NCBI RefSeq assembly: GCF_900107095.1
Contig: NZ_FNOR01000004.1
Span: 124,001-188,000, forward strand
Source: Collimonas sp. OK242
GTDB lineage: Bacteria; Pseudomonadota; Gammaproteobacteria; Burkholderiales; Burkholderiaceae_D
Direction: 5' to 3'
DNA: 64,000 bases
In this document: piece by piece, positions 33,752 through 48,919 of the stretch
Layout: every line of letters starts with the position of its first letter
Numbering within the stretch: position 1 is the stretch's first letter
The notes under the pieces: model-generated
Seen by the model: the letters and a program-made list of their open reading frames with translations, nothing else
Told to the model about the DNA's origin: nothing
Database searches by the model: none
Program-made: the position numbers and the translations under genes

Positions 33752-34759
33752 GTGAAGCTGATTATCCAGATCCCTTGTTATAACGAAGCCGGGACCCTCG
33801 CCATTGCGCTTGCTGCCTTACCCAGAAAAATCTTGGGATTTGATAGCGTCGAATGGTTAATCATTGACGACGGTAGTAGTGACGACACGATTAAGATAGC
33901 CCGAGAAAACGGTGTCGACCATGTAGTACGCCATACTCGTAATCAGGGCTTGGCGCGCGCGTTCATGAGCGGACTGGAGGCATGCCTGCACCTGAAAGCG
34001 GATGTTATTGTCAACACCGATGCCGATAATCAATACAATGCGGATGATATCCCCGCACTTACTGCGCCTATTGTCGCTAAGCAAGCCGATATCGTAGTGG
34101 GTGCACGCCCAATTGAAGCGATTGAACATTTTTCGCCGTGGAAAAAAATGCTGCAAAAACTGGGCAGCTGGGTGGTACGTGTCGCCAGCAAGACTGACAT
34201 CCCCGACGCCGCCAGTGGCTTTCGCGCTATCAGCCGCACTGCGGCCCAAAGCCTGACAGTTTTCAGTAACTACACCTACACACTCGAAACCATCATCCAG
34301 GCCGGGCAAAAAAACATGAGTATCACCTCGGTTCCCATCCGGGTGAACGCGGACCTGCGGCCGTCACGCCTGGTCAAAAGCATCTCATCGTATGTGTGGC
34401 GCAGCATAGTCACCATTGTAAGAATTTTCGTCATCTATCGTCCTTTTCGCTTTTTCGGAACGATTGGCGCCATATTGTTCAGCGCAGGCCTCTTGATTGG
34501 TTTGCGGTTCATGTGGAAGTACATCGGTGGCGAAGGGGCGGGGCACATTCAGTCCTTGATTCTGGTAGCTGTCTTATTGGTAATGGGATTTCAGACCTTG
34601 CTGGTAGCTTTTTTGGCGGATATGTTGGCAGCCAACCGAAAATTGACCGAAGACGTGCGCTTTCGATTACGAGCTGGCAAAGACGCAAACGCAATATTGG
34701 ATCGCTCGATTGATCGGGATATGCAATCGTTGACGCCGCTTGATGACATGGCTGCTTAA
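33752..34759 (+). CDS. Glycosyltransferase family 2, polyprenol-phosphate sugar synthase type (GtrB/DPM1-like)
   Basis: Predicted enzyme of 335 residues that would transfer a sugar from a nucleotide donor to a polyprenyl phosphate. The GT-A domain has IQIPCYNEAGTLAIAL at the N-terminus, the acidic IIDDGSSDDT and the DxD-like NTDADNQY. Two C-terminal hydrophobic segments (about 230-250 and 265-290) are the GtrB/DPM1 layout. The start is GTG 33752. A GT-C partner lies upstream, which fits a donor-maker plus donor-user pair. The sugar is unknown. GC content is back to intermediate. Confidence 0.8.
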   Translation: MKLIIQIPCYNEAGTLAIALAALPRKILGFDSVEWLIIDDGSSDDTIKIARENGVDHVVRHTRNQGLARAFMSGLEACLHLKADVIVNTDADNQYNADDIPALTAPIVAKQADIVVGARPIEAIEHFSPWKKMLQKLGSWVVRVASKTDIPDAASGFRAISRTAAQSLTVFSNYTYTLETIIQAGQKNMSITSVPIRVNADLRPSRLVKSISSYVWRSIVTIVRIFVIYRPFRFFGTIGAILFSAGLLIGLRFMWKYIGGEGAGHIQSLILVAVLLVMGFQTLLVAFLADMLAANRKLTEDVRFRLRAGKDANAILDRSIDRDMQSLTPLDDMAA

Positions 34760-34768
34760 GCAGATTCG

Positions 34769-35914
34769 ATGAAAATCGTCTTATGGGGTACTTATGACAC
34801 GGGCAAACCACGGGTGAGGCTGTTGCGCGAGGGTATCCGGAAAAGCAGCGTCCAATTGATCGAGTGTCACACAGATATCTGGAGCGGTATTGAAGACAAA
34901 AGCCAGATCAGCAGTGTTTTCAGCAAGCTGTCTTTGGTGCTCCGTCTCTTTTCCTGCTATCCATTACTGATTTGGCGATATCTGCGATTGCCGGCCCATG
35001 ATCTGGTTCTGGTCAGCTACCCAGGCTTGTTCGATGTATTGGTCATCCGCTGCTTCGCCTGGTTAAGACGCACGCCGGTAGCATGGGATGTCTTTATCTC
35101 GGCCTACGATACGGTGGTCGACGATCGGCGTTTGTTCAGTATCCACCACCCGGCGGCTCGTGTGTTGTGGGGGCTGGAGTGGCTCGCGGTCAGAGCGGCC
35201 AACGGCATCTTCATGGATACCGAAGCACACGCCAGACGGTTGGAAGGACTCTTTCGTTTACGTGACGGCGAATGCGGCGCGGTGTGGGTAGGCGCGGAAA
35301 CAGAAAAATTCCCGGTCGCCCCCGCAACTGCTCCGCAACCTGAAAGGCCTTTGCAGGTGCTGTTCTACGGCCAGTTTATTCCATTGCATGGGATTGAATA
35401 TATTGTAGAAGCTGCCGGCTTGCTACGTGATGAAAAGATCGATTGGATATTGATCGGACAGGGACAAGAAACACAACGCGTCCGAGAGATGCTTGCTAAC
35501 GCGCCTGTGGCACGCCTGCGTTGGCTTGAATGGATTGATTACCCCGATTTGATAACCTGGATTCAACAAGCGGATATCTGTCTTGGCATTTTTGGCACCT
35601 CGAAAAAAGCTGCCAATGTTATCCCGAATAAGGTCTACCAGATTATTGCAGCGCAAAAGCCGTTAATTACCCGAGACTCCCCAGCCATTCGGGAGCTCCT
35701 GCGGCACAATCCTCCGTGTGTCGCTTTAATCCCTGCCGGTAATGCGCATGCATTGGCGAATGCGGTGAAATCGCATGCGGATATGCTGGCGGATCACCGC
35801 ACCACTCGTTGCCACGCTGACTTGGCAAACAAGATTGATGCTGCAGCGATCGGGGTTCAGTTTCGCAAGTGGCTGCTAACAAAAGAAAATTTCAAAATCA
35901 ATAATGAAAATTGA
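34769..35914 (+). CDS. Glycosyltransferase family 4/1 (GT-B)
   Basis: Predicted retaining sugar transferase of 381 residues. The C-terminal donor-binding half starts near LQVLFYGQFIPLHGIEYIVEAA and continues with WILIGQGQE, WIDYPDLITWIQQADICLG and IPNKVYQIIAAQKPLITR, the usual GT4 pattern with the Glu-containing motif degenerate. A hydrophobic stretch at about 65-80 suggests membrane association. The 3' end overlaps the next methyltransferase gene by 11 bases. Confidence 0.8.
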   Translation: MKIVLWGTYDTGKPRVRLLREGIRKSSVQLIECHTDIWSGIEDKSQISSVFSKLSLVLRLFSCYPLLIWRYLRLPAHDLVLVSYPGLFDVLVIRCFAWLRRTPVAWDVFISAYDTVVDDRRLFSIHHPAARVLWGLEWLAVRAANGIFMDTEAHARRLEGLFRLRDGECGAVWVGAETEKFPVAPATAPQPERPLQVLFYGQFIPLHGIEYIVEAAGLLRDEKIDWILIGQGQETQRVREMLANAPVARLRWLEWIDYPDLITWIQQADICLGIFGTSKKAANVIPNKVYQIIAAQKPLITRDSPAIRELLRHNPPCVALIPAGNAHALANAVKSHADMLADHRTTRCHADLANKIDAAAIGVQFRKWLLTKENFKINNEN

Positions 35915-36704
35915 CCCGATACTTGGACCAGCCGTACCAGAACTGGGTTGGGTTCCTGCGCCACGTTACCTGATGCGACGTGCGCGAATCCGCCAATTGA
36001 TGAGCAAGATGCAGCCCGGACGACTACTGGAAATCGGCCCAGGCGCTGCAGCGTTGCTGGTTGAATTATCCCGGAATGGATTCCGCTGCGAAGCGCTGGA
36101 ACTCTCCGTTGAAGCTCGCACGTTATCGCAATCGGTAGTTGATAGATTTGGCCGAGACATTCCGCTTCATGCACTGCCTGGGGCGCAATGGCAAAATTGT
36201 TTTGACGTGTTATGCGCTTTTGACGTGTTGGAACATATCGAGGACGACCAGCAGGCATTGGCGCAATGGGTATCTTGGATCAAGCCGGGCGGGCAATTAT
36301 TGTTGTCTGTACCAGCTCACATGAAGCTATGGCGCGCGGGCGACCAATGGGCCGGACATTTTCGACGCTATGAGCGCGAATCGCTAATAACATTGTTGCA
36401 GGATGCCGGACTGGAAGTGGAAATATTCGAATGCTATGGTTTCCCACTGACGAACCTGACCGAATGGATCAGCGCCCCCATCTATGCTCGCCGCATATAC
36501 AACAATTCCCACAACGATGAAACAAACCGCAAGCAGAATAATGACCGAAGTGGCACCGACCGCGTGCCACACATGAGGCTCTACCCCCTACTGCGTTCTG
36601 TGCCGGGTAAATGGGCGTTACGTCTGTTTGCCATGATACAAGGCATCTTTATCAATAAAGATCTCGGCAGCGGCTATGTCGTCAGAGCCAGACGCCAATG
36701 CTGA
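35904..36704 (+). CDS. Class I SAM-dependent methyltransferase (UbiG/type-11 like)
   Basis: Predicted methyltransferase of 266 residues. SAM motif I is RLLEIGPGAAALLVEL (about 34-49), followed by the acidic end of strand 2 (ALELSVEA) and motif FDVLEHIEDDQQALAQW with GGQLLLSVPAH as motif III. It overlaps both neighbours (11 bases upstream, 7 downstream), so it belongs to the glycan module. It may methylate a sugar or lipid; the substrate cannot be read from sequence. Confidence 0.8.
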   Translation: MKIDPILGPAVPELGWVPAPRYLMRRARIRQLMSKMQPGRLLEIGPGAAALLVELSRNGFRCEALELSVEARTLSQSVVDRFGRDIPLHALPGAQWQNCFDVLCAFDVLEHIEDDQQALAQWVSWIKPGGQLLLSVPAHMKLWRAGDQWAGHFRRYERESLITLLQDAGLEVEIFECYGFPLTNLTEWISAPIYARRIYNNSHNDETNRKQNNDRSGTDRVPHMRLYPLLRSVPGKWALRLFAMIQGIFINKDLGSGYVVRARRQC

Positions 36705-37648
36705 AGAAAATCTATCGTTTTCTGGGCCTTCTGATTGGCCTGGTGGCTGTGATTGCTTTCATGGGATATACGGTCAAAACGTTAACCATCGCGGACATAT
36801 CGCATTACATCACCGCTCCGGCGATAGGTGGCATCATCGTGGCAGCACTACTTTACGCCACCATCATCCCGGTGAGCGCCTGGGCCTGGAAAAACATGCT
36901 TGCCGATATCGGCTGCCCTCATTCATGGTACGAGTTGTCAATGATCATGGGCGTCACCCAGATGGCTAAATATCTACCGGGGAATGTCGGACAACATATT
37001 GGTCGTGCTGCGATGTCAATGACGCGCGGTATCGCCATTCAGCCATTCTTGTTAACCGTATTTTCAGAAACTTTGCTTGCCTTGTTGGCCGCTTTAGTGA
37101 CTGGGACGACTGGTGCTTTTTTTTCACAAGCCGGTCTCGCCAGTTTTGCGTCTGCGCACCAGACCATTTTCATTCCAATGCTGGTCGGGCTGTTAATCAT
37201 CGCGTTGTTGCTCTATCGTCCCATGGTTCCGCGCCTGCTCAAACGATTTGCCCCCGCCTACGGCAAGTCATCGCTGGCAGGCTTGCTGCCTCATTCGTTG
37301 ACGCTGCTGCGAGCTTTGGCGGCCTACTGCTTGAACTACGTCATGATTGGCGTCGGGATTTTTTTGATGGCGACGGCATTGCTGCCAGAAGTAAAGCATG
37401 ATTTCATGCTGCTGCTCGCCAGCTTTTCTCTGGCCTGGGTTGCTGGTTTTTTTACGCCAGGCGCCCCTGCCGGCTTAGGCGTTCGTGAAGTGATCATGCT
37501 TGGCATGCTCAGCGCGAGTTACCCAGGATCAAACGCCCTTCTTATCATTGTCTGTTTCAGGCTGGCGACCATACTGGGTGATAGCCTGTGCTTCCTAACT
37601 GCCTATGTCATGCTGATTTTTTCCCGGCGTGCGGCATGTTCTTCTTAA
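36698..37648 (+). CDS. Lysylphosphatidylglycerol synthase-type (UPF0104/YbhN-like) membrane protein
   Basis: Integral membrane protein of 316 residues with about eight hydrophobic segments, matching the transmembrane domain of MprF-like proteins but without the catalytic aminoacyl-transfer domain. Family signatures include MAKYLPGNVGQHIGRAAM and the C-terminal GFFTPGAPAGLGVREVIML. Such proteins are thought to flip or bind lipids and often sit in glycan clusters. Here it could flip a lipid-linked sugar made by its neighbours (inference). Confidence 0.8.
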   Translation: MLKKIYRFLGLLIGLVAVIAFMGYTVKTLTIADISHYITAPAIGGIIVAALLYATIIPVSAWAWKNMLADIGCPHSWYELSMIMGVTQMAKYLPGNVGQHIGRAAMSMTRGIAIQPFLLTVFSETLLALLAALVTGTTGAFFSQAGLASFASAHQTIFIPMLVGLLIIALLLYRPMVPRLLKRFAPAYGKSSLAGLLPHSLTLLRALAAYCLNYVMIGVGIFLMATALLPEVKHDFMLLLASFSLAWVAGFFTPGAPAGLGVREVIMLGMLSASYPGSNALLIIVCFRLATILGDSLCFLTAYVMLIFSRRAACSS

Positions 37649-37669
37649 TCCCTACTTACATCCCACGCC

Positions 37670-38470
37670 ATGAGTCTCGAACCTACCGGTGAAAGAATGA
37701 TCATCGAGCATTACCACTCTTCGCTCGAAGATTACGTCATTTATGTTATGCATATCGCCACTTACAATTTTGCTGAACAGTTCACAAGGAACCAGCGCGT
37801 TCTCGATTATGGCTGTGGCAGCGGTTATGGTGCTGCGCGAATCGCAAAAAATGCCGCTCATGTGCATGCCGTTGATGTAGCGGATGATGCCATTGCATAC
37901 GCCCGCGAACACTACGCAGCGGATAACCTTGATTTCCACTGCTGCGCGCCGGACAGTCGCCTGCCGTTTCCGGACCAGTCGTTTGACACCGTACTGTCGT
38001 TTCAGGTTTTTGAGCACATTGAAGAAACTGCGCATTACCTGTCAGAAATTCGCCGCGTCCTCGTACCTGGCGGACATCTGCTACTGGTAACCCCGGATCG
38101 CAGCACCCGTTTGCTGCCCTTCCAATCCCCCTGGAATCGCTGGCACATTCGCGAATACAGCACGAACTCTCTCAGAAGAACATTGAATAGAGTTTTTCCA
38201 GACGTCCGGATACAGCACATGAGCGGGCGCCAAGATGTGATCGCAATAGAACTTAAGCGCTGCGCGAAAGTGAAATGGCTGACACTCCCCTTCACACTGC
38301 CTTTTGTACCAAGGTTCCTGAGGGTGAAACTATTAAATGTTCTTCACACATTGAAAAGTAAACGCGAATCGTCTGGCTCGTCACGGCAATTCAATTTTGA
38401 CGAGTCGCATATAACAATTGCGCCAAATGCACAGCCATCTCTGAATCTGGTGGCGGTAGTTCGAAAATAG
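37670..38470 (+). CDS. Class I SAM-dependent methyltransferase
   Basis: Second predicted methyltransferase of the module, 266 residues. SAM motif I is VLDYGCGSGYGAARIA (about 44-59), with HAVDVADDAI and LSFQVFEHIEETAHYL further on and GGHLLLVTPDR as motif III. It differs clearly from the upstream methyltransferase, so it is not a simple duplication. It is the last gene of the plus-strand module, 21 bp after the membrane protein gene. Substrate unknown. Confidence 0.8.
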   Translation: MSLEPTGERMIIEHYHSSLEDYVIYVMHIATYNFAEQFTRNQRVLDYGCGSGYGAARIAKNAAHVHAVDVADDAIAYAREHYAADNLDFHCCAPDSRLPFPDQSFDTVLSFQVFEHIEETAHYLSEIRRVLVPGGHLLLVTPDRSTRLLPFQSPWNRWHIREYSTNSLRRTLNRVFPDVRIQHMSGRQDVIAIELKRCAKVKWLTLPFTLPFVPRFLRVKLLNVLHTLKSKRESSGSSRQFNFDESHITIAPNAQPSLNLVAVVRK

Positions 38471-38759: not shown

Positions 38760-41700
38760 ATGGTTCACATGTCTCGGCGCCAGTTTCTTAAAACGACTGG
38801 CGCTACCCTGGCAGGTTCAAGCCTGGCGTTGATGGGATTTTCGCCGGCGCCCGCGCTGGCGGAGGTCCGCAGCTATAAACTGACGCGCACCGTCGAAACC
38901 CGCAACACCTGCCCCTACTGCTCCGTCAGTTGCGGAGTCCTGATGTACAGCCTCGGCGATGGCGCCAAGAATGCCCAAGCCAGCATCATTCACATCGAAG
39001 GTGATCCGGATCACCCGGTCAATCGCGGCACGCTCTGCCCCAAAGGCGCGGCTTTGCTCGATTTCGTGCACAGCCCGAGCCGTCTCCGGTTCCCCGAATA
39101 TCGAGCGCCAGGCGCCAAGGAATGGAAACGCATGTCTTGGGACGATGCGCTAAGCCGCATTGCAACCTTGATGAAGCAGGACCGGGATGCCAATTTTGTC
39201 GAAAAGACCCCGGAGGGCTTGACCGTCAACCGCTGGCTGACCACGGGCATGCTGGCCGCATCGGCCAGCAGCAATGAAGTCGGCTACCTGACGCATAAAA
39301 CCATACGCAGTCTTGGCATTCTGGGGTTCGATAACCAGGCGCGTGTCTGACACGGTCCGACGGTGGCAGGTCTTGCCCCGACGTTTGGCCGTGGAGCGAT
39401 GACGAATCATTGGGTCGACATCAAGAATGCGGACGTTATTCTCATCATGGGCGGCAATGCAGCCGAAGCGCATCCCTGCGGTTTCAAATGGGTGACGGAA
39501 GCCAAGGCGCATAACAAGGCTAAGCTGATCGTGGTTGATCCGCGCTTTACGCGCTCGGCCTCGGTGGCGGATTTCTACGCGCCTATCCGTACCGGCACGG
39601 ATATCATCTTCCTCGGCGGCGTGATCCGCTACCTGCTGGAGAAGGATCAGATTCAGCACGAGTACGTCAAGAATTACACTGACTTCACTTTTATCGTGCG
39701 GGAAGATTTCACTTTCGACGACGGGATTTTCTCTGGCTACAACGCGGAAAAACGCAATTACAGCAAGACCACCTGGGATTACGAACTGGGCGACGACGGT
39801 TTTGTAAAGACCGATCCGACCCTGGCCCATCCGCGCTGCGTATTCAAGCTGATGAAACAGCACTACGATCGCTACACACCGGAGATGGTGGAGAGCGTGT
39901 GCGGCACGCCCAAGGAGAAATTCCTGAAAGTGTGCGAAATGCTGGCGTCCACCGCATCGCCGACACGCGCCGGCACCATCTTGTACGCGCTCGGCTGGAC
40001 CCAGCATTCGATCGGTTCGCAAATCATCCGCACCGGCGCGATGGTGCAACTGCTGCTCGGCAATATCGGCATTGCCGGCGGCGGCATGAATGCCTTGCGC
40101 GGCCACTCGAACATCCAGGGGCTGACCGATCTGGGGCTGATGACCAATCTGCTGCCGGGTTACATGACCCTGCCCTCGGAATCCGAGCAAGACTACGGCA
40201 AATATATCGCCGCGCGCGCCAGCAAGCCGTTGCGCCCGAATCAGCTGAGTTACTGGCAGAACTACGGCAAGTTCCATGTCAGCCTGATGAAAGCATGGTG
40301 GGGCGACGCCGCCAAGGCGGACAACAACTGGGGTTATGACTATCTGCCCAAGCTGGACAAGCCGTACGACATGCTGCAGGTGTTTGAACTGATGAAACAA
40401 GGCAAGGTCAACGGCTATATCGCCCAGGGCTTCAACCCGCTGGCGGCGGCGCCGGACAAAGGGAAAATCGGCGCCAGCCTGGCTAATCTGAAGTTCCTGG
40501 TCATCATGGATCCGCTGGCCACCGAGACTTCCGAGTTCTGGCAGAACCATGGCGTGTTCAATGACGTCGATCCGAGCAAGATACAGACCGAGGTATTCCG
40601 CCTGCCCACCACCTGCTTTGCCGAAGAGGACGGCTCGCTGGTGAATTCCGGCCGCTGGCTGCAATGGCATTGGAAAGGCGCACCGCCTCCGGGCGAGGCG
40701 CGCAGCGATCTGGAAATCATGTCGGAGCTGTTCCTGAAGATTCGCACGATGTACGCCAAGGACGGCGGCAAATATCCTGATCCTATCCTCAACCTGTCAT
40801 GGCCCTACGCCAATCCGGAAAACCCGACCGCGGAAGAACTGGCCAAGGAATACAACGGCCGCGCGCTCAGCGACCTGGCTGATCCCAAGGATGCGACCAA
40901 GATCGTCCGCAAGAAAAACGAGCAGGTGGCCGGCTTTGCCGAGCTGCGCGATGACGGCAGCACGGCCTGCGGCTGCTGGATTTTCGCCGGTTGCTGGACC
41001 GAAGCCGGCAACCAGATGGCGCGGCGCGACAACTCCGATCCGACCGGCATCGGGCAAACCCTGAACTGGGCATGGGCATGGCCGGCCAACCGGCGCATCC
41101 TGTATAACCGCGCATCCTGCGACCTCAATGGCAAACCGTTCGATCCGAAACGCAAGGTGATCGGCTGGAACGGCCAGAAATGGGGCGGCGTCGACGTGCC
41201 CGATTTCAAGGTGGACGAAGCGCCGGCGGGCGGCATGGGACCGTTCATCATGAACCCGGAAGGCGTGGCGCGTTTCTTTGCCAGGGCCGGCATGGCCGAG
41301 GGACCGTTCCCGGTGCATTACGAACCGTTCGAAACGCCGGTCGGCTACAACCCGCTGTTTCCAAAAAATCCGGCGGCGACCAGCAATCCGGGCGCGCGGG
41401 TATTCGCCGACGACCGCGCCATGTTCGGCAAGGCCGATGCCTTCCCGCATGTAGCCACCACTTACCGGCTCACCGAACATTTCCACTACTGGACCAAGCA
41501 TGCGCGTCTCAACGCCATTCTCCAACCCGAGCAGTTTGTCGAGATTGGCGAAGAGCTGGCGAAGGAAGTCGGCGTGGTCGCCGGCGAGCGGGTCAAGGTC
41601 AGTTCCAAGCGCGGTCACATTGTTGCCGTGGCGGTGGTGACCAAACGCATCAAGAAAATGACGATTGAAGGCAAGCCGGTGCATCACGTAGGGATCCCGA

Positions 41701-41828
41701 TACACTGGGGTTTCAAAGGTTTGACCAAACCGGGCTACCTGGCCAACACGCTGACGCCGGGTGTGGGCGACGGCAATTCGCAGACGCCGGAATTCAAGTC
41801 GTTCCTGGTCAAGGTCGAGAAGGCATAG
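38760..41828 (+). CDS. fdnG: Formate dehydrogenase-N/O alpha subunit, selenocysteine-containing (UGA at 39348 read as Sec197)
   Basis: Catalytic subunit that oxidises formate to CO2 in the periplasm and passes electrons to the quinone pool through FdnH and FdnI. The twin-arginine signal is SRRQFLK at 5-11. A 4Fe-4S site uses Cys51, Cys54, Cys58 and Cys93. The frame is interrupted by TGA at 39348-39350, but sequence on both sides is continuous with the family: ...[18 protein letters not shown]. coli FdnG has Sec at 196, against residue 197 here. With Sec the protein is 1022 residues, the expected size. A SECIS hairpin follows immediately and selA, selB and selC are downstream. The molybdopterin domains follow in normal order. 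A gene caller that ignores Sec will split this into two ORFs. Confidence 0.97.
39348..39393 (+). promoter_or_regulatory. Bacterial SECIS element directing Sec insertion at UGA
   Basis: The UGA is followed directly by a hairpin: outer stem 39351-39355 with 39389-39393, inner stem GGCA/TGCC at 39365-39368 and 39374-39377, apical loop GGTCT. Counting the U of UGA as 1, the bulged U is at 17 (39364) and the loop G and U are at 23 and 24 (39370-39371), the positions that SelB contacts in E. coli fdhF. Confidence 0.92.
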
Positions 41829-41836
41829 GAGAAACC

Positions 41837-42820
41837 ATGGCCCTGCAATCACTCGATGTCAAACGCGTCTCCGCCACCACTACGGCGCCGCCCGGCGTAC
41901 GTGAACAGGTGACCGGCACTGTCGCCAAACTGATCGATGTCACTAAATGCATAGGCTGCAAAGCCTGCCAGACCGCATGCATGGAATGGAACGATCTGCG
42001 CGACGAGGTCGGCGTCAACGTCGGCGTGCTGGACAATCCGCCTGATTTGACGGAACACTCGTGGACCGTGATGCGTTTTTCGGAATACGAAAATCCGGAC
42101 GGCAATCTCGAATGGCTGATCCGCAAGGATGGCTGCATGCACTGCGCAGATCCGGGCTGCCTCAAGGCTTGTCCGGCGCCCGGCGCGATCGTCCAGTACA
42201 ACAACGGGATTGTCGATTTTCACGAAGAAAACTGCATCGGCTGCGGCTATTGCGTCACCGGCTGCCCGTTCGACGTGCCGCGCATTTCAAAGAAGGACAA
42301 CAAAGCCTATAAATGCACGCTCTGTTCAGATCGGGTCGCCGTGGGCCAGGAACCGGCCTGCGTCAAGACCTGCCCTACCGGCGCGATCGTATTCGGCACC
42401 AAAGAGGACATGAAGGCGCACGCAGAAGAGCGCATAGTCGATCTCAAGGAGCGTGGCTTCGGACAGGCTGGCCTGTACGACCCGCCAGGCGTCGGCGGCA
42501 CGCATGTCATGTACGTCTTGCATCATGCGGATAAGCCTTCGCTCTATCACGGCCTGCCAGACAACCCGCATATCAGCCCCTTGGTCGGTTTGTGGAAAGG
42601 CGCCGCCAAGCCGCTCGCGCTGGCAGGCATCGCGTTGACGGCGCTGGCGGGATTTTTCCACTATATCAAGGTCGGACCGAGCGAGGTCTCGGAGGATGAC
42701 AAGGCGGCGGAGAAGGAGGAAGCCGATTCCGCCAAGCGTGCCGCGCTGCTTGCCACGCCAACTGTCGACACGAATGATCCCAACGATCCCAACATCAACT
42801 CGCAGGATCTGCCGCCATGA
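41837..42820 (+). CDS. fdnH: Formate dehydrogenase beta subunit (4Fe-4S ferredoxin)
   Basis: Electron-transfer subunit of 327 residues with four 4Fe-4S cluster motifs: [35 protein letters not shown] and CTLCSDRV...CVKTC. A C-terminal membrane anchor (about 258-275) is followed by a Glu/Lys-rich tail. It carries electrons from the alpha subunit to the cytochrome b subunit across the membrane. It follows fdnG by 8 bp with a good ribosome site, and its stop overlaps the gamma subunit start as ATGA. Confidence 0.96.
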
Positions 42821-43458
42821 ACAACGCCGAACGAGATGTAGAAAAAGACAGCATCGTACGTTACAACGCCAAGGAGCGCATCAACCACTGGCTCGTCGCC
42901 ATCACGTTTGTAGTGCTGGCGCTGTCCGGACTGGCCTTGTTCCATCCAGCGATGTTCTGGCTCACCTTTGTATTGGGCGGCGGCACCTGGACGCGCATCT
43001 TGCATCCTTTCATCGGGCTGGTGATGTTTGTCTGTTTTGCGATACTGGCCCTTGGTTTCTGGCGCTACAATCTGATCGAAAAGAATGACATTGCCTGGCT
43101 AAAAGGGATACGCGAGGTGGTCGGCAATCGCGAACAAAACCTGCCGCCGGTGGGCCGCTACAATGGTGGCCAGAAGTTGCTGTTCTGGATCATGATCGCC
43201 TGTATGATAGGACTGCTGCTGTCCGGTATCGTCATCTGGCGCGCCTGGTTTTCCTGGCTGTTCCCGCTATTTGTGATCCGGGTTGCGGTTGTGCTGCATG
43301 CGCTGTGCGGCTTCTTGCTGATCGTGGGCATCGTCGTGCATATTTATGCGGCCATCTGGATCAAGGGAACGGTGGGCGCCATGACGCGCGGCACCGTCAG
43401 CCGCGCCTGGGCGCGCAAGCATCATCCGGCCTGGTACCGGAACATGACAGACGAATGA
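42817..43458 (+). CDS. fdnI: Formate dehydrogenase gamma subunit (cytochrome b556)
   Basis: Quinone-reducing membrane subunit of 213 residues with four hydrophobic segments. Histidines suited to binding two b-type haems occur in [21 protein letters not shown] and [13 protein letters not shown]. The motif [25 protein letters not shown] near the C-terminus is typical of FdnI/FdoI. It completes the fdnGHI operon; fdhE follows after 10 bp. Confidence 0.95.
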
Positions 43459-43468
43459 AGGAACCGAC

Positions 43469-44404
43469 TTGCAACGTATCCTCGAACCGGGCGAAATCGA
43501 AGCACTTGACCAAAATGCCATTCCACGCATTCGCCTGCCGGAACGCGCCAGCGTATTCAGCAATCGCGCGCAACGCCTGCAACAACTCGCAGCGGGAAAT
43601 GCCATCGGCGGCTACCTGAACCTGATGGCGGTACTGGCGGAGGCGCAGCAGCAGGCATTGAACAGATTAGCCGGCGAACCAGACGACCATGCCCGGGACC
43701 AGGCGCGCATCAACCTGGCACACACGCATCTGATGCCATTGATTCTGGCTACAGATCAGGTGCGTAGCCCGCACTGGCAAGCTGTCTTCAATCAATTACT
43801 CCAACACATCGCAGAAGCCGCCGACATCCCGGCTGCCGTAACGCAACTGGTAGCGCGGCTTCAGCAAACCGGCGCCAACGAGCGTGACAGCCAGGCCGAA
43901 GCGATCCTGCGCAACAATCATGAGATTGTCGATCCGGCCAGCGCCCCGTTTTACGCTGCCGCCCTGCAAGTGGTCTGCTGCGATCTTGTGACCCGCTTTA
44001 GCGTACGCGATGTGCCGCTGCTGGATACGCCTGGGCTGTGCCCATGCTGCGGCTCATTGCCGGTGGCCAGCGTTGTGCGCATGGATGGGCAATCGCAGGG
44101 GCATCGCTACCTGCAATGCAGCATGTGCGCGGCCGAGTGGCATATGGTGCGCATCAAATGCAGCTATTGCGATTCCACAAAAGGCATCGCCTACCAGGCC
44201 ATCGCAGATGGTTCGCCGGCCATCAAGGCCGAGACCTGCGATGAATGCCACAGCTGGCTGAAAATCTTCTATCAGGAAAAAGATCCCTATCTCGAACCGC
44301 TGGCCGACGACCTGGCCAGCGTAGCCCTGGATCTGCTGATGGGCGAAACTGTTTATGCACGCCGCCATGGCAATCCCCTGCTCTGGCAATCCACGGAGAA
44401 CTGA
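43469..44404 (+). CDS. fdhE: Formate dehydrogenase accessory protein FdhE
   Basis: Cytosolic factor required for activity of membrane-bound formate dehydrogenases, 311 residues. It has four CxxC motifs of the rubredoxin-like type: CPCC, CSMC, CSYC and CDEC. The start is TTG 43469; GAAGGA lies at a proper distance upstream and no ATG precedes the conserved N-terminal segment ILEPGEIEALDQ. It is cotranscribed between fdnI and selA, and its stop directly abuts the selA ATG. Confidence 0.93.
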   Translation: MQRILEPGEIEALDQNAIPRIRLPERASVFSNRAQRLQQLAAGNAIGGYLNLMAVLAEAQQQALNRLAGEPDDHARDQARINLAHTHLMPLILATDQVRSPHWQAVFNQLLQHIAEAADIPAAVTQLVARLQQTGANERDSQAEAILRNNHEIVDPASAPFYAAALQVVCCDLVTRFSVRDVPLLDTPGLCPCCGSLPVASVVRMDGQSQGHRYLQCSMCAAEWHMVRIKCSYCDSTKGIAYQAIADGSPAIKAETCDECHSWLKIFYQEKDPYLEPLADDLASVALDLLMGETVYARRHGNPLLWQSTEN

Positions 44405-45853
44405 ATGGCTGCTGCAATCACGCAAGCTGAGGCAGCCACAATCTCGATCGCCTCTGTCAGTGACATTCCCGCCGTCGACCGTATTCTGAATCTGACGGCA
44501 GCCCAGCCCTTGCTGGCGCAATACGGACGCACTCGGGTAACCGCCGCGGTGCGCAGGCATCTGGATCAGCTGAGGGCCGATGCCCTTGCCGGCAAACTGG
44601 CGCAGGCAGATGTGGACGAATCGCAGCTGGTCGAGATTCTCGCAAAGCAGCTGGCAGCTGCCAACCGGCTGCATCTGCGGGCATTGTTCAATCTTACCGG
44701 CACCGTGCTGCATACCAATCTGGGGCGCGCACTGCTGCCGGACGAAGCGGTGCAGGCGGTGACCAGTGCACTGACAGCTCCCGGCAATCTTGAATTCGAT
44801 CTGGAAACCGGCGGCCGCGGCGATCGCGACAGCCTGGTTGAAGACGTATTGTGTGAGCTCACCGGCGCCGAAGCAGCCACCGTTGTCAACAACAACGCTG
44901 CCGCCGTGCTGCTGATGCTCAATGCACTGGCGCAAAGGAAAGAAGTGATCGTCTCGCGCGGCGAACTGGTCGAAATCGGCGGCGCATTCCGCATCCCCGA
45001 CATCATGCAGCGCGCAGGCGCAAAACTGGTGGAAGTCGGCAGCACCAACCGTACCCATGCGGCGGATTACGCCAACGCCATCACGCCGCGTAGCGCGATG
45101 CTGATGAAGGTTCATTGCAGTAATTACGCCATCAGCGGCTTCACGCACAGTGTCGAAGTCTCGACGCTGGCAGAACTGGCGCGCCCGCACGGACTGCCTG
45201 TTACAGTTGATCTCGGCAGCGGCACGCTGGTCGACCTGACGCAGTGGGGCCTGCCGGGAGAGACCACGGTACGGGAAACCATACGGCAAGGCGCGGATCT
45301 GGTCACATTCAGCGGCGACAAGCTGTTGGGCGGGCCGCAGGCCGGGCTGATCGTCGGCCGCGCAGACCTGATAGCCCGCATCAAGAAAAATCCGCTGAAG
45401 CGTGCGCTGCGCGTCGGCAAGCTCACCTTGGCCGCACTGGAACCGGTGCTAAGACTGTATCTTGCCCCGGAATTTCTGGCAGAACGCCTGACAACCTTAC
45501 GCCTGCTTACCCGTAACCAGCTTGCGATACGAGTTCAGGCTGAACGCCTGTTAAGCGTATTGCAGACTGCGCTGGGAACCCGCTATACCGTCACCGCAGA
45601 AGCGATGTTCAGCCAGATTGGCAGCGGCGCATTGCCAGTCGACCAGCTGCCGAGTTACGGCCTGGTGGTGCGTGCCGGGAATGGCGCCAAACGCCATGGC
45701 CGCGCGCTCGACCAACTGGAAAAAGCCCTGCGCCAGTTGCCGCGTCCTGTCATCGGACGGATCGCCAGCGATGCGTTGTGGCTGGATTGCCGCTGCCTGG
45801 AAGAACGTGACGAAGCCGTTTTCAACGCACAGTTGCTGGATCTGTCCCTATGA
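44405..45853 (+). CDS. selA: L-seryl-tRNA(Sec) selenium transferase SelA
   Basis: PLP enzyme that converts seryl-tRNA(Sec) to selenocysteinyl-tRNA(Sec) using selenophosphate; works as a large ring of subunits. It has 482 residues. PLP is bound by Lys306 in [13 protein letters not shown]. The N-terminal tRNA-binding part and [13 protein letters not shown] are family signatures. The ATG directly abuts the fdhE stop, and the selA stop overlaps the selB start as ATGA, so it is translationally coupled at both ends. Confidence 0.97.
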
Positions 45854-47790
45854 TCGTCGGCACCGCCGGGCATATCGATCACGGCAAGACCACGCTCATC
45901 AAGGCGCTGACAGGCGTCAGTACCGATCGCCTCAAGGAGGAGCAGGTCCGAGGCATTTCGATTGAGCTTGGTTATGCCTACACCCCGCTGCCGAATGGCG
46001 AAGTATTGGGATTTATCGACGTGCCGGGTCATGAGCATCTGGTGCATACGATGGTGGCGGGCGCCTCCGGCATCGACTTCGCATTGCTGGTGATTGCCGC
46101 CGACGATGGCGTCATGCCGCAAACACGCGAGCATCTGGAAATCCTGCAATGGCTGGGAGTCAATAGCGGCGCAGTGGCCCTGACCAAAATCGACCGCGTC
46201 GATCAAGCGCGCATTGCCGAAGTCGCCAGCGAAATTCAACAGCTGTTGGCAAGCACCATGCTGGCAGACGTAGCGCTCTTTCCCGTCGCCGCACATGACT
46301 TGCAAGATGTTGGAACCGCCGCCCTGCTACGCCATTTGCACGAGGTCGCGCAGCATATGCAGCCGCGTCGCGATGACGGACTATTCAGGCTGGCGATTGA
46401 CCGGGTGTTTACCCTTGCAGGACACGGCACCGTGGCGACCGGAACCGTTTTCTCCGGCCAGGTCCACGTCGGCGATCATGTTGCGCTGATGCCAGCCGGC
46501 GACATGGCGCGCGTACGCAGCCTGCATGTGCAAAACCGCGCGGCCCCCAGCGGCCGCGCCGGACAGCGTTGCGCACTCAACCTGAGCGGCATCGACAAGG
46601 ATGCCATCAGGCGCGGCGACTGGCTGGCCGATCCACGCGCAATGACGCCGTCGACACGGATTGATGTGGAGCTCCAGCTGTCGGCCCATGCCGGCGTATT
46701 GCTGCGCAACCGCTCACCCCTGCATGTACACCTGGGCACCTTGCATCAAGTTGCCCAGGTCACGCTACTGGAAGGAAATACGCTGTCTCCCGGCAGCCGC
46801 AGCAGAGTGCAGCTGCAATTTGAAACGCCTGTCTGCGCGATTCCGGGCGACCGCTTTATCATCCGCAATGCGCAGGCAAACATGACCATCGGCGGCGGTC
46901 ATGTACTGGACCCGCTTGCTCCTGCACGTAAGCGCCGCACACCGGAACGCCACGCCTGGCTCGATGCGATCGAACACATGCTGAACGGCGCCGGCATCGG
47001 CGCGTTGCTGCAAGCCGCTGCGCCTGGCGGCTTGCGCTTCTCCATGCTGATGCAGCTTAGCGGCATGCCAGCCGCCGCATTGCAGTTGCCGGAAGACGCG
47101 CAATCCATCGCGACCGGTGCGCAAGAGCAGGATAATTTTGTCATGCTGTCTGCCCAATGGCAGTCGTTAAGAACGCTGGCGCTAACTGCACTCACGGAGT
47201 TTCATGCACGCTTTCCTGACGAACAGGGTGTGGACGCCGCACGTCTGCGGCGGATGACGCTGCCGGCGCTGGATAGCGCGCTGTGGTTGGCAGTCGTCGA
47301 CTCCCTCATCGGCGATGCGACGATTCAGCGCAGCGGACCATGGCTGCATCTGCCGCAGCATACGGTAACGCTGTCAGAAGAGGAACAGGCGCTGGCGCAA
47401 CAGCTGCTGTCAACGCTGGCCGCAGCGGGATATGACCCGCCCTGGGTGCGCGAACTGGCGCAAGCGCACAAGATTGCAGAGGAAGCGGTGCGGCAGCTAT
47501 TGCGTAAATTACTGCGGCAAGGGCTGGTATATCAAATAGAGCGCGACCTGTTTTATCACCATGACCGTGTGCGCGAACTAGCCGCGCTGCTGGCGCGTCT
47601 GGCCGCAGAACAAAGGCCAGAGCATGATTCTACAGCTGCGGCAGGAGTGAATGCCGCACGCTGGCGCGATGCCACGGGACTGGGCCGTAAGCGCGCCATC
47701 CAGATCCTGGAATTTTTTGATCGTATAGGCTATACCCGCCGCCTGCGCGATGCGCACGTATTGCGCGGCGGCGACCTGAGCTGGTTCTGA
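45850..47790 (+). CDS. selB: Selenocysteine-specific elongation factor SelB
   Basis: GTPase that delivers Sec-tRNA to UGA codons marked by SECIS hairpins, 646 residues. GTP-binding motifs are [12 protein letters not shown] (G1), DVPGHEH (G3) and TKIDR (G4). EF-Tu-like barrels follow to about residue 340, and the remaining region contains the winged-helix domains that bind the SECIS RNA ([19 protein letters not shown] and [18 protein letters not shown] near the end). Overlap with selA indicates coupled translation. selC follows within 41 bp. Confidence 0.97.
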
Positions 47791-47830: not shown

Positions 47831-47926
47831 GGAAGGCACACGTATCCGGTGATGCGGCCGGGCTTCAAACCCGGTGGGGGGTGCCAGTCACTCCCGGGTA
47901 GGTTCGACTCCTGCTGCCTTCCGCCA
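47831..47926 (+). tRNA. selC: tRNA-Sec (anticodon UCA)
   Basis: 96-nt tRNA with the features unique to tRNA-Sec: an eight-base acceptor stem (GGAAGGCA/TGCCTTCC), a long variable arm (about 47873-47893), anticodon loop CTTCAAA giving anticodon UCA, and an encoded CCA end at 47924-47926. Overall sequence follows E. coli selC closely in the T arm (GGTTCGACTCC). It directly follows selB and ends only six bases before the convergent waaC stop codon. Confidence 0.97.
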
Positions 47927-47932
47927 ACGGAT

Positions 47933-48919
47933 TTATTGCGCCAGTGTGCTCACCGCCAGCGCGACCTGTTCCACGCTAGGCGCCGCGCCAAGTTCACCCA
48001 GGTTGATAATTTGCGATGACCAGTTGCCTTCGGTTTTCCAGCGCGGCGAATCGCAATATAGCTCAATGGTCGGACGGTTGAATGCAGCGGCGATGTGAGT
48101 CAGGCCGGTATCGACGCCGATCACCAATGCCGCACGCTGGGCCAGCAAGACCGCTTCCATCAATGGCAACCTGGGGAGCACCCGCGCATTGCGCATTTGG
48201 CTCGCCAACTGCTCCGCAGTGTTTTTCTCAGCATCGCTCCCCCAGGGCAGCAACACCGGCAGGCCGCGTTCAGCGAGCAAGGCGGCAATGCGCACCCAAC
48301 TGGCATTCGGCCACTGCTTGGCAGCGCGCGCCGTGCCATGAAAAAAAACTGCATAGGGCGCATCCGGCAGCCAGGCGGGCCGCTCTGCGGGCGTCAGGGC
48401 GGGAGGGCGCAAATTGAAATCAGCAACGCCGTCGACGCTGTAGCCAAGCGCCTGTGCCGCGACTTCACGGGCGCGCAATACAGCGTGCGTATGCAAACCC
48501 ACTTCGACGCTCGCGGTGTGAAATATGCGTGACAGCGGTTCATAACCGGAGCCCTCGGTCGCGTTCGCCAATCCGACCCGTTGGCCATCGGGAGCAAGCC
48601 GCGCCATCCGCATGACCACACTGGTTTTCAGCAAGCCTTGCGTATCGAACACGATATCGTAGGCATCCTGTCTGAGCTGCTGCCTGAAAGTCGATATTTC
48701 CGCCCGGGTGGCGGCAGACAACAGACTCTTGCGCCAGCGGCGCAGGGCAATCGGGATGATGCGGCGTACGTCTGGATTCATGCGCACCAGGCCGGTGTAC
48801 CCCTCTTCCACGACCCAGTCGATATTCGCATCGGGATAATGGCGTCGGATGTCCGACACCATTGGCATGTTATGCACCACGTCGCCCAAAGAGGAGACGC
48901 GGACGATCAGGATGTTCAA
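47933..48919 (-). CDS. waaC: LPS heptosyltransferase I WaaC
   Basis: GT9 enzyme that adds the first L-glycero-D-manno-heptose to Kdo of the inner core. It has 328 residues and opens with MNILIVRVSSLGDVVHNMP, the WaaC signature. ADP-heptose binding segments include FFHGTARAAKQWP and IGVDTGLTHIAAAFNRPTI. Normal length. The 3' end nearly meets selC; upstream, 24 bp separate it from the phosphohexomutase gene on the same strand, with which it is probably co-transcribed. Confidence 0.95.
   Translation of the reverse strand: MNILIVRVSSLGDVVHNMPMVSDIRRHYPDANIDWVVEEGYTGLVRMNPDVRRIIPIALRRWRKSLLSAATRAEISTFRQQLRQDAYDIVFDTQGLLKTSVVMRMARLAPDGQRVGLANATEGSGYEPLSRIFHTASVEVGLHTHAVLRAREVAAQALGYSVDGVADFNLRPPALTPAERPAWLPDAPYAVFFHGTARAAKQWPNASWVRIAALLAERGLPVLLPWGSDAEKNTAEQLASQMRNARVLPRLPLMEAVLLAQRAALVIGVDTGLTHIAAAFNRPTIELYCDSPRWKTEGNWSSQIINLGELGAAPSVEQVALAVSTLAQ

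Follow-up and report, generated by a model that had tools for sequence, protein, structure and literature searches.

The window, that is, the whole stretch of 64,000 nucleotides from Collimonas sp. OK242 that was analyzed, carries a run of genes matching the three subunits of a formate dehydrogenase, its accessory protein FdhE, and components of the selenocysteine (Sec) insertion machinery. The features below and their homologies were observed directly in the DNA (the NCBIfam cut-offs given for fdoH, fdoI, fdhE, selA, and selB are equivalog cut-offs):

38760..41828 (+), fdoG/fdnG, formate dehydrogenase-N alpha subunit; 1022 aa, Tat signal, one in-frame UGA (predicted Sec197); TIGR01553, Pfam, 1KQF
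39345..39403 (+), bacterial SECIS, Rfam RF01989 SECIS_3; 83.3 bits, gathering 63; begins 3 bases before the TGA
39348..39350 (+), in-frame TGA, predicted to be read as Sec; aligned with residue 196 of E. coli FdnG; TGA in 80/80 homologues examined
41837..42820 (+), fdoH, formate dehydrogenase beta (iron-sulfur) subunit; TIGR01582, 461.1 bits, cut-off 334.7
42817..43458 (+), fdoI, formate dehydrogenase gamma (cytochrome b) subunit; TIGR01583, 200.6 bits, cut-off 115.85
43469..44404 (+), fdhE, formate dehydrogenase accessory protein; TIGR01562, 275.7 bits, cut-off 187.65
44405..45853 (+), selA, L-seryl-tRNA(Sec) selenium transferase; TIGR00474, 606.2 bits, cut-off 267.9
45850..47790 (+), selB, Sec-specific elongation factor; TIGR00475, 457.2 bits, cut-off 242.25; winged-helix PF09106, PF21214, PF09107
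47831..47926 (+), selC, tRNA-Sec, anticodon TCA; ARAGORN; RF01852 at 47831-47922, 77.7 bits, gathering 47

The frame at 38760-41828 (+) is open except for a single TGA, codon 197 (39348-39350). When this TGA is read as U, the joined product comprises 1022 residues, with U197 as the only non-standard step before the terminal stop. The standard ORF list of the window splits the gene into two pieces in the same frame, 38760-39350 (196 aa) and 39363-41828 (821 aa). These are the two fragments that the earlier note, made from the same DNA, had described, and the flanks of the TGA that it had named (DNQARV upstream and a stretch of 10 residues downstream) were both found in the translation. The same split would be seen in a pseudogene, with the TGA due to nonsense mutation or to faulty sequencing, but against this stands a family match that spans the whole protein: the NCBIfam model for formate dehydrogenase-N alpha, TIGR01553, scored 1503.4 bits (cut-off 814.2) over residues 4-1021 of 1022. 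The joined protein also contains the Pfam domains PF04879, PF00384, and PF01568 (Fe4S4, molybdopterin, and dinucleotide-binding, respectively), and the Tat signal PF10518 was barely above its cut-off (23.2 versus 22.7 bits).

The best match among PDB sequences was E. coli FdnG (1KQF chain A; 1577.2 bits), and the alignment, which the earlier note had suggested as a check, runs from end to end. The residue encoded by the TGA is aligned with an X, that is, a non-standard residue, at position 196 of the E. coli chain, which we take to be Sec and a ligand of the metal; the placement of the TGA at the Sec site of the family (196 in FdnG, 197 here) was thereby borne out. The eleven entries following 1KQF in this search are titled Sec-containing formate dehydrogenase. 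A comparison with 5426 E. coli genomes found at least 80% of the gene covered in 5377, all records falling into the 60-80% identity band, and the five E. coli matches listed are fdnG (68.4-68.7% identity). Within the genome of strain OK242 itself, eight stretches besides the gene are weakly related to the alpha subunit (at most 110.9 bits), and none of these eight contains an internal stop.

Relatives were sought in genome contigs, where at least 593 were confirmed; the best 80 by score, with identities down to 71.2%, were considered further, the nearest of them stemming from Cupriavidus, Achromobacter, and Paraburkholderia, which points to a betaproteobacterial genome. The codon aligned with codon 197 was TGA in all 80. 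A sense codon for anything other than Cys or Sec, which the earlier note had named as speaking against its reading, was thus absent from this set. A Cys codon was likewise found in none of these best 80 of at least 593, a set chosen by score, so that distant Cys forms would fall outside it; the notion that the family is a Cys form in which a stop arose by chance was rejected on these grounds. As TIGR01553 continues unbroken through the TGA, the SECIS model scores at this very place, and the TGA recurs in every one of the 80 homologues, its coincidence with the Sec site is more than chance. The same conservation led to rejection of the pseudogene or sequencing error, which we regard as extremely improbable also in view of a relative from the same genus (95% identity) with exactly one internal TGA, the SECIS at the codon, and the adjoining decoding genes. 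Most likely, as judged from sequence, the TGA-interrupted gene encodes a normal respiratory formate dehydrogenase into which Sec is inserted at the TGA.

The Rfam model search yielded one SECIS_3 element in the OK242 genome, and it detected the element in the E. coli control genome as well. In the homologues, the element is conserved almost letter for letter. When the fraction of identical codons, taken over positions where the amino acid is the same, was determined in 1005 windows of 17 codons, the one beginning at codon 200 ranked first (0.884; maximum among windows outside the region, 0.815; mean, 0.568; sd, 0.089), as would follow from selection on the RNA itself downstream of the TGA. All 16 pairs of the Rfam structure are standard in the window sequence, and 499 of 528 cells are paired over the 33 distinct sequences that resulted from anchoring the window and all 80 loci at the TGA. 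Double changes occurred in only four of the 16 pairs, each in one or two of the 33 sequences, so that covariation supports the stem without proving it. The folding energy of the element is unexceptional (z -1.50; equaled or surpassed by 19 of 200 shuffled sequences).

Between the SECIS and the tRNA-Sec, the genes fdoH, fdoI, fdhE, selA, and selB lie on one strand and almost end to end. The tRNA-Sec, the only one above cut-off in the genome, had a folding z of -2.36. The decoding machinery that the earlier note had placed in the window is indeed there as far as selA, selB, and selC are concerned, but selD is located on another contig (C12:16458-17384; 432.5 bits, cut-off 125), where it adjoins a gene for tRNA 2-selenouridine synthase (C12:15364-16284; 356.4 bits). 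Of the Sec-decoding genes, selA, selB, selC, and selD were all found in the genome. A promoter scan returned a single site, against a chance expectation of 0.6. The block is directly followed, on the opposite strand, by a gene for LPS heptosyltransferase I (47933-48919 (-); TIGR02193, 349.7 bits). Upstream of the block (33752-38470 (+)), translations read by eye resembled glycosyltransferases and methyltransferases; a family search with 37670-38467 returned methyltransferase families, those shown all being under cut-off.

The UGA might also be read by something other than tRNA-Sec (e.g., through near-cognate readthrough), or termination might yield a useful product of 196 residues. In general, a certain amount of termination can be expected at Sec codons, but the presence of the Sec machinery and of a SECIS at the codon, the non-standard residue that the homologous structure has at the same site, and the synonymous conservation immediately downstream leave hardly any probability to either option. 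Decoding of the UGA as Sec, as the earlier note had proposed, agrees with the family, the site, the SECIS, the tRNA-Sec, SelA, SelB, the SelD encoded in the genome, and the conservation of the TGA, and we infer that selenium would be inserted at codon 197. Judged on the same features, the locus is almost certainly an operon-like run comprising a respiratory Sec-containing formate dehydrogenase of the FdnGHI/FdoGHI type, FdhE, and its own selA-selB-selC.

How this system would operate can be proposed by analogy with the E. coli enzyme and the general Sec pathway, both of which are well characterized. The genes would be cotranscribed. SelD, encoded elsewhere in the genome, would make selenophosphate, which would serve SelA as the selenium source for converting seryl-tRNA(Sec) to Sec-tRNA(Sec). 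SelB would bind both Sec-tRNA(Sec) and the hairpin of the SECIS at codon 197, with the consequence that the ribosome would decode the UGA as Sec rather than terminate. The selenium of Sec would then be a ligand of the molybdenum center, where formate would be oxidized, presumably on the periplasmic side, and electrons would pass via the iron-sulfur beta subunit (FdoH) to the cytochrome b gamma subunit (FdoI) and on to quinone.

The gene order fdoG-fdoH-fdoI-fdhE-selA-selB-selC was present in 63 of the 80 homologous loci; in the remaining 17, one or more genes of the order were not found, and as less than 8.5 kb of DNA follows the site in 10 of the 80, short contigs can explain only some of the incomplete orders. 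Among 60 genomes of the window's family (the OK242 genome included), 13 contained a full-length match to the alpha subunit, each with exactly one internal TGA. SelB exceeded its cut-off in 20 of the 60, all 13 with the full-length match among them. Homologues whose record titles name organisms that we take to belong to Burkholderiales and Xanthomonadales raise the prospect, which we consider somewhat doubtful, that the fdoGHI-fdhE-selABC block may move between lineages as a nearly self-sufficient unit. If it is mobile, its scattered occurrence (in 13 of the 60 family genomes) would amount to repeated gain of an amino acid together with its user.

Seven of the 20 SelB-containing genomes lack a full-length FdnG homologue, and tRNA-Sec was above cut-off in all seven. 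In three of them (G055, G015, and G034), a frame open through one TGA near selB corresponds to the known UGSC (seleno)protein family (L103:6537-7064 (+), L105:12161-12685 (-), and L106:15200-15906 (-)). These were sought in the stretch around selB, among the frames listed (up to eight per locus after filtering); PF24696 was found in all three, and NF041046 was above cut-off in two and slightly under it in the third (121.1 of 125). If the genomes are betaproteobacterial, these UGSC-like (seleno)protein frames would qualify the statement of Zhang et al (2006; PMC1794560) that the Sec-decoding organisms studied there have no selenoprotein gene other than fdhA. The presence of further selenoprotein genes in the OK242 genome was probed by means of SECIS_3, tRNA-Sec, relatives of the alpha subunit, and a search for UGSC proteins run without a positive control.

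One genome of the family, G058, contains the alpha match in two pieces (42-47% identity), one of them with a TGA. It also has two SelB matches above cut-off, one of which is partial (contig C81), and tRNA-Sec at 78.2 bits (C81) and 67.4 bits (C82, the contig of locus L107). A distinct formate dehydrogenase alpha frame of this genome (L109:2334-5534 (-)) is open through a TGA, codon 198 of the frame as started in the analysis, and exceeds the cut-offs of NF041513 (1461.7 bits) and of TIGR01553 (980.4 bits). This genome may carry two Sec-decoding sets; misassembly or contamination is also possible.

The main consequence is for annotation: the two ORFs should be merged into a single selenoprotein gene, and the genome should be listed as Sec-using. 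The locus also exemplifies how a single enzyme can be encoded next to most of the genes required for the 21st amino acid. It resembles E. coli formate dehydrogenase-N (FdnGHI; PDB 1KQF) in that the alpha subunits align from end to end, the UGA lies opposite residue 196, a SECIS_3 element is present, and the genes for the beta and gamma subunits come next. It differs in that fdhE, selA, selB, and selC directly follow; to our knowledge, these genes are not part of the fdn operon of E. coli.

A closer counterpart is found in betaproteobacteria. According to the available part of Zhang et al (2006; PMC1794560), all Sec-decoding Alphaproteobacteria, Betaproteobacteria, and Pseudomonadales studied possess similar selA-selB-selC operons with fdhA as a neighbor, and joint horizontal transfer was argued for Pseudomonadales; among bacterial selenoprotein families, FdhA is the one with the widest distribution, as stated in a 2026 review (PMC13188914). 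With the betaproteobacterial fdhA-selA-selB-selC clusters, as far as they are described in that part of PMC1794560, the present locus shares both the selA-selB-selC operon and the neighboring fdhA, and no differences from them were found. The arrangement reported there indicates that the finding is correct and, at the same time, ordinary: the predicted Sec-containing formate dehydrogenase locus of the window is a further instance of a well-known system.
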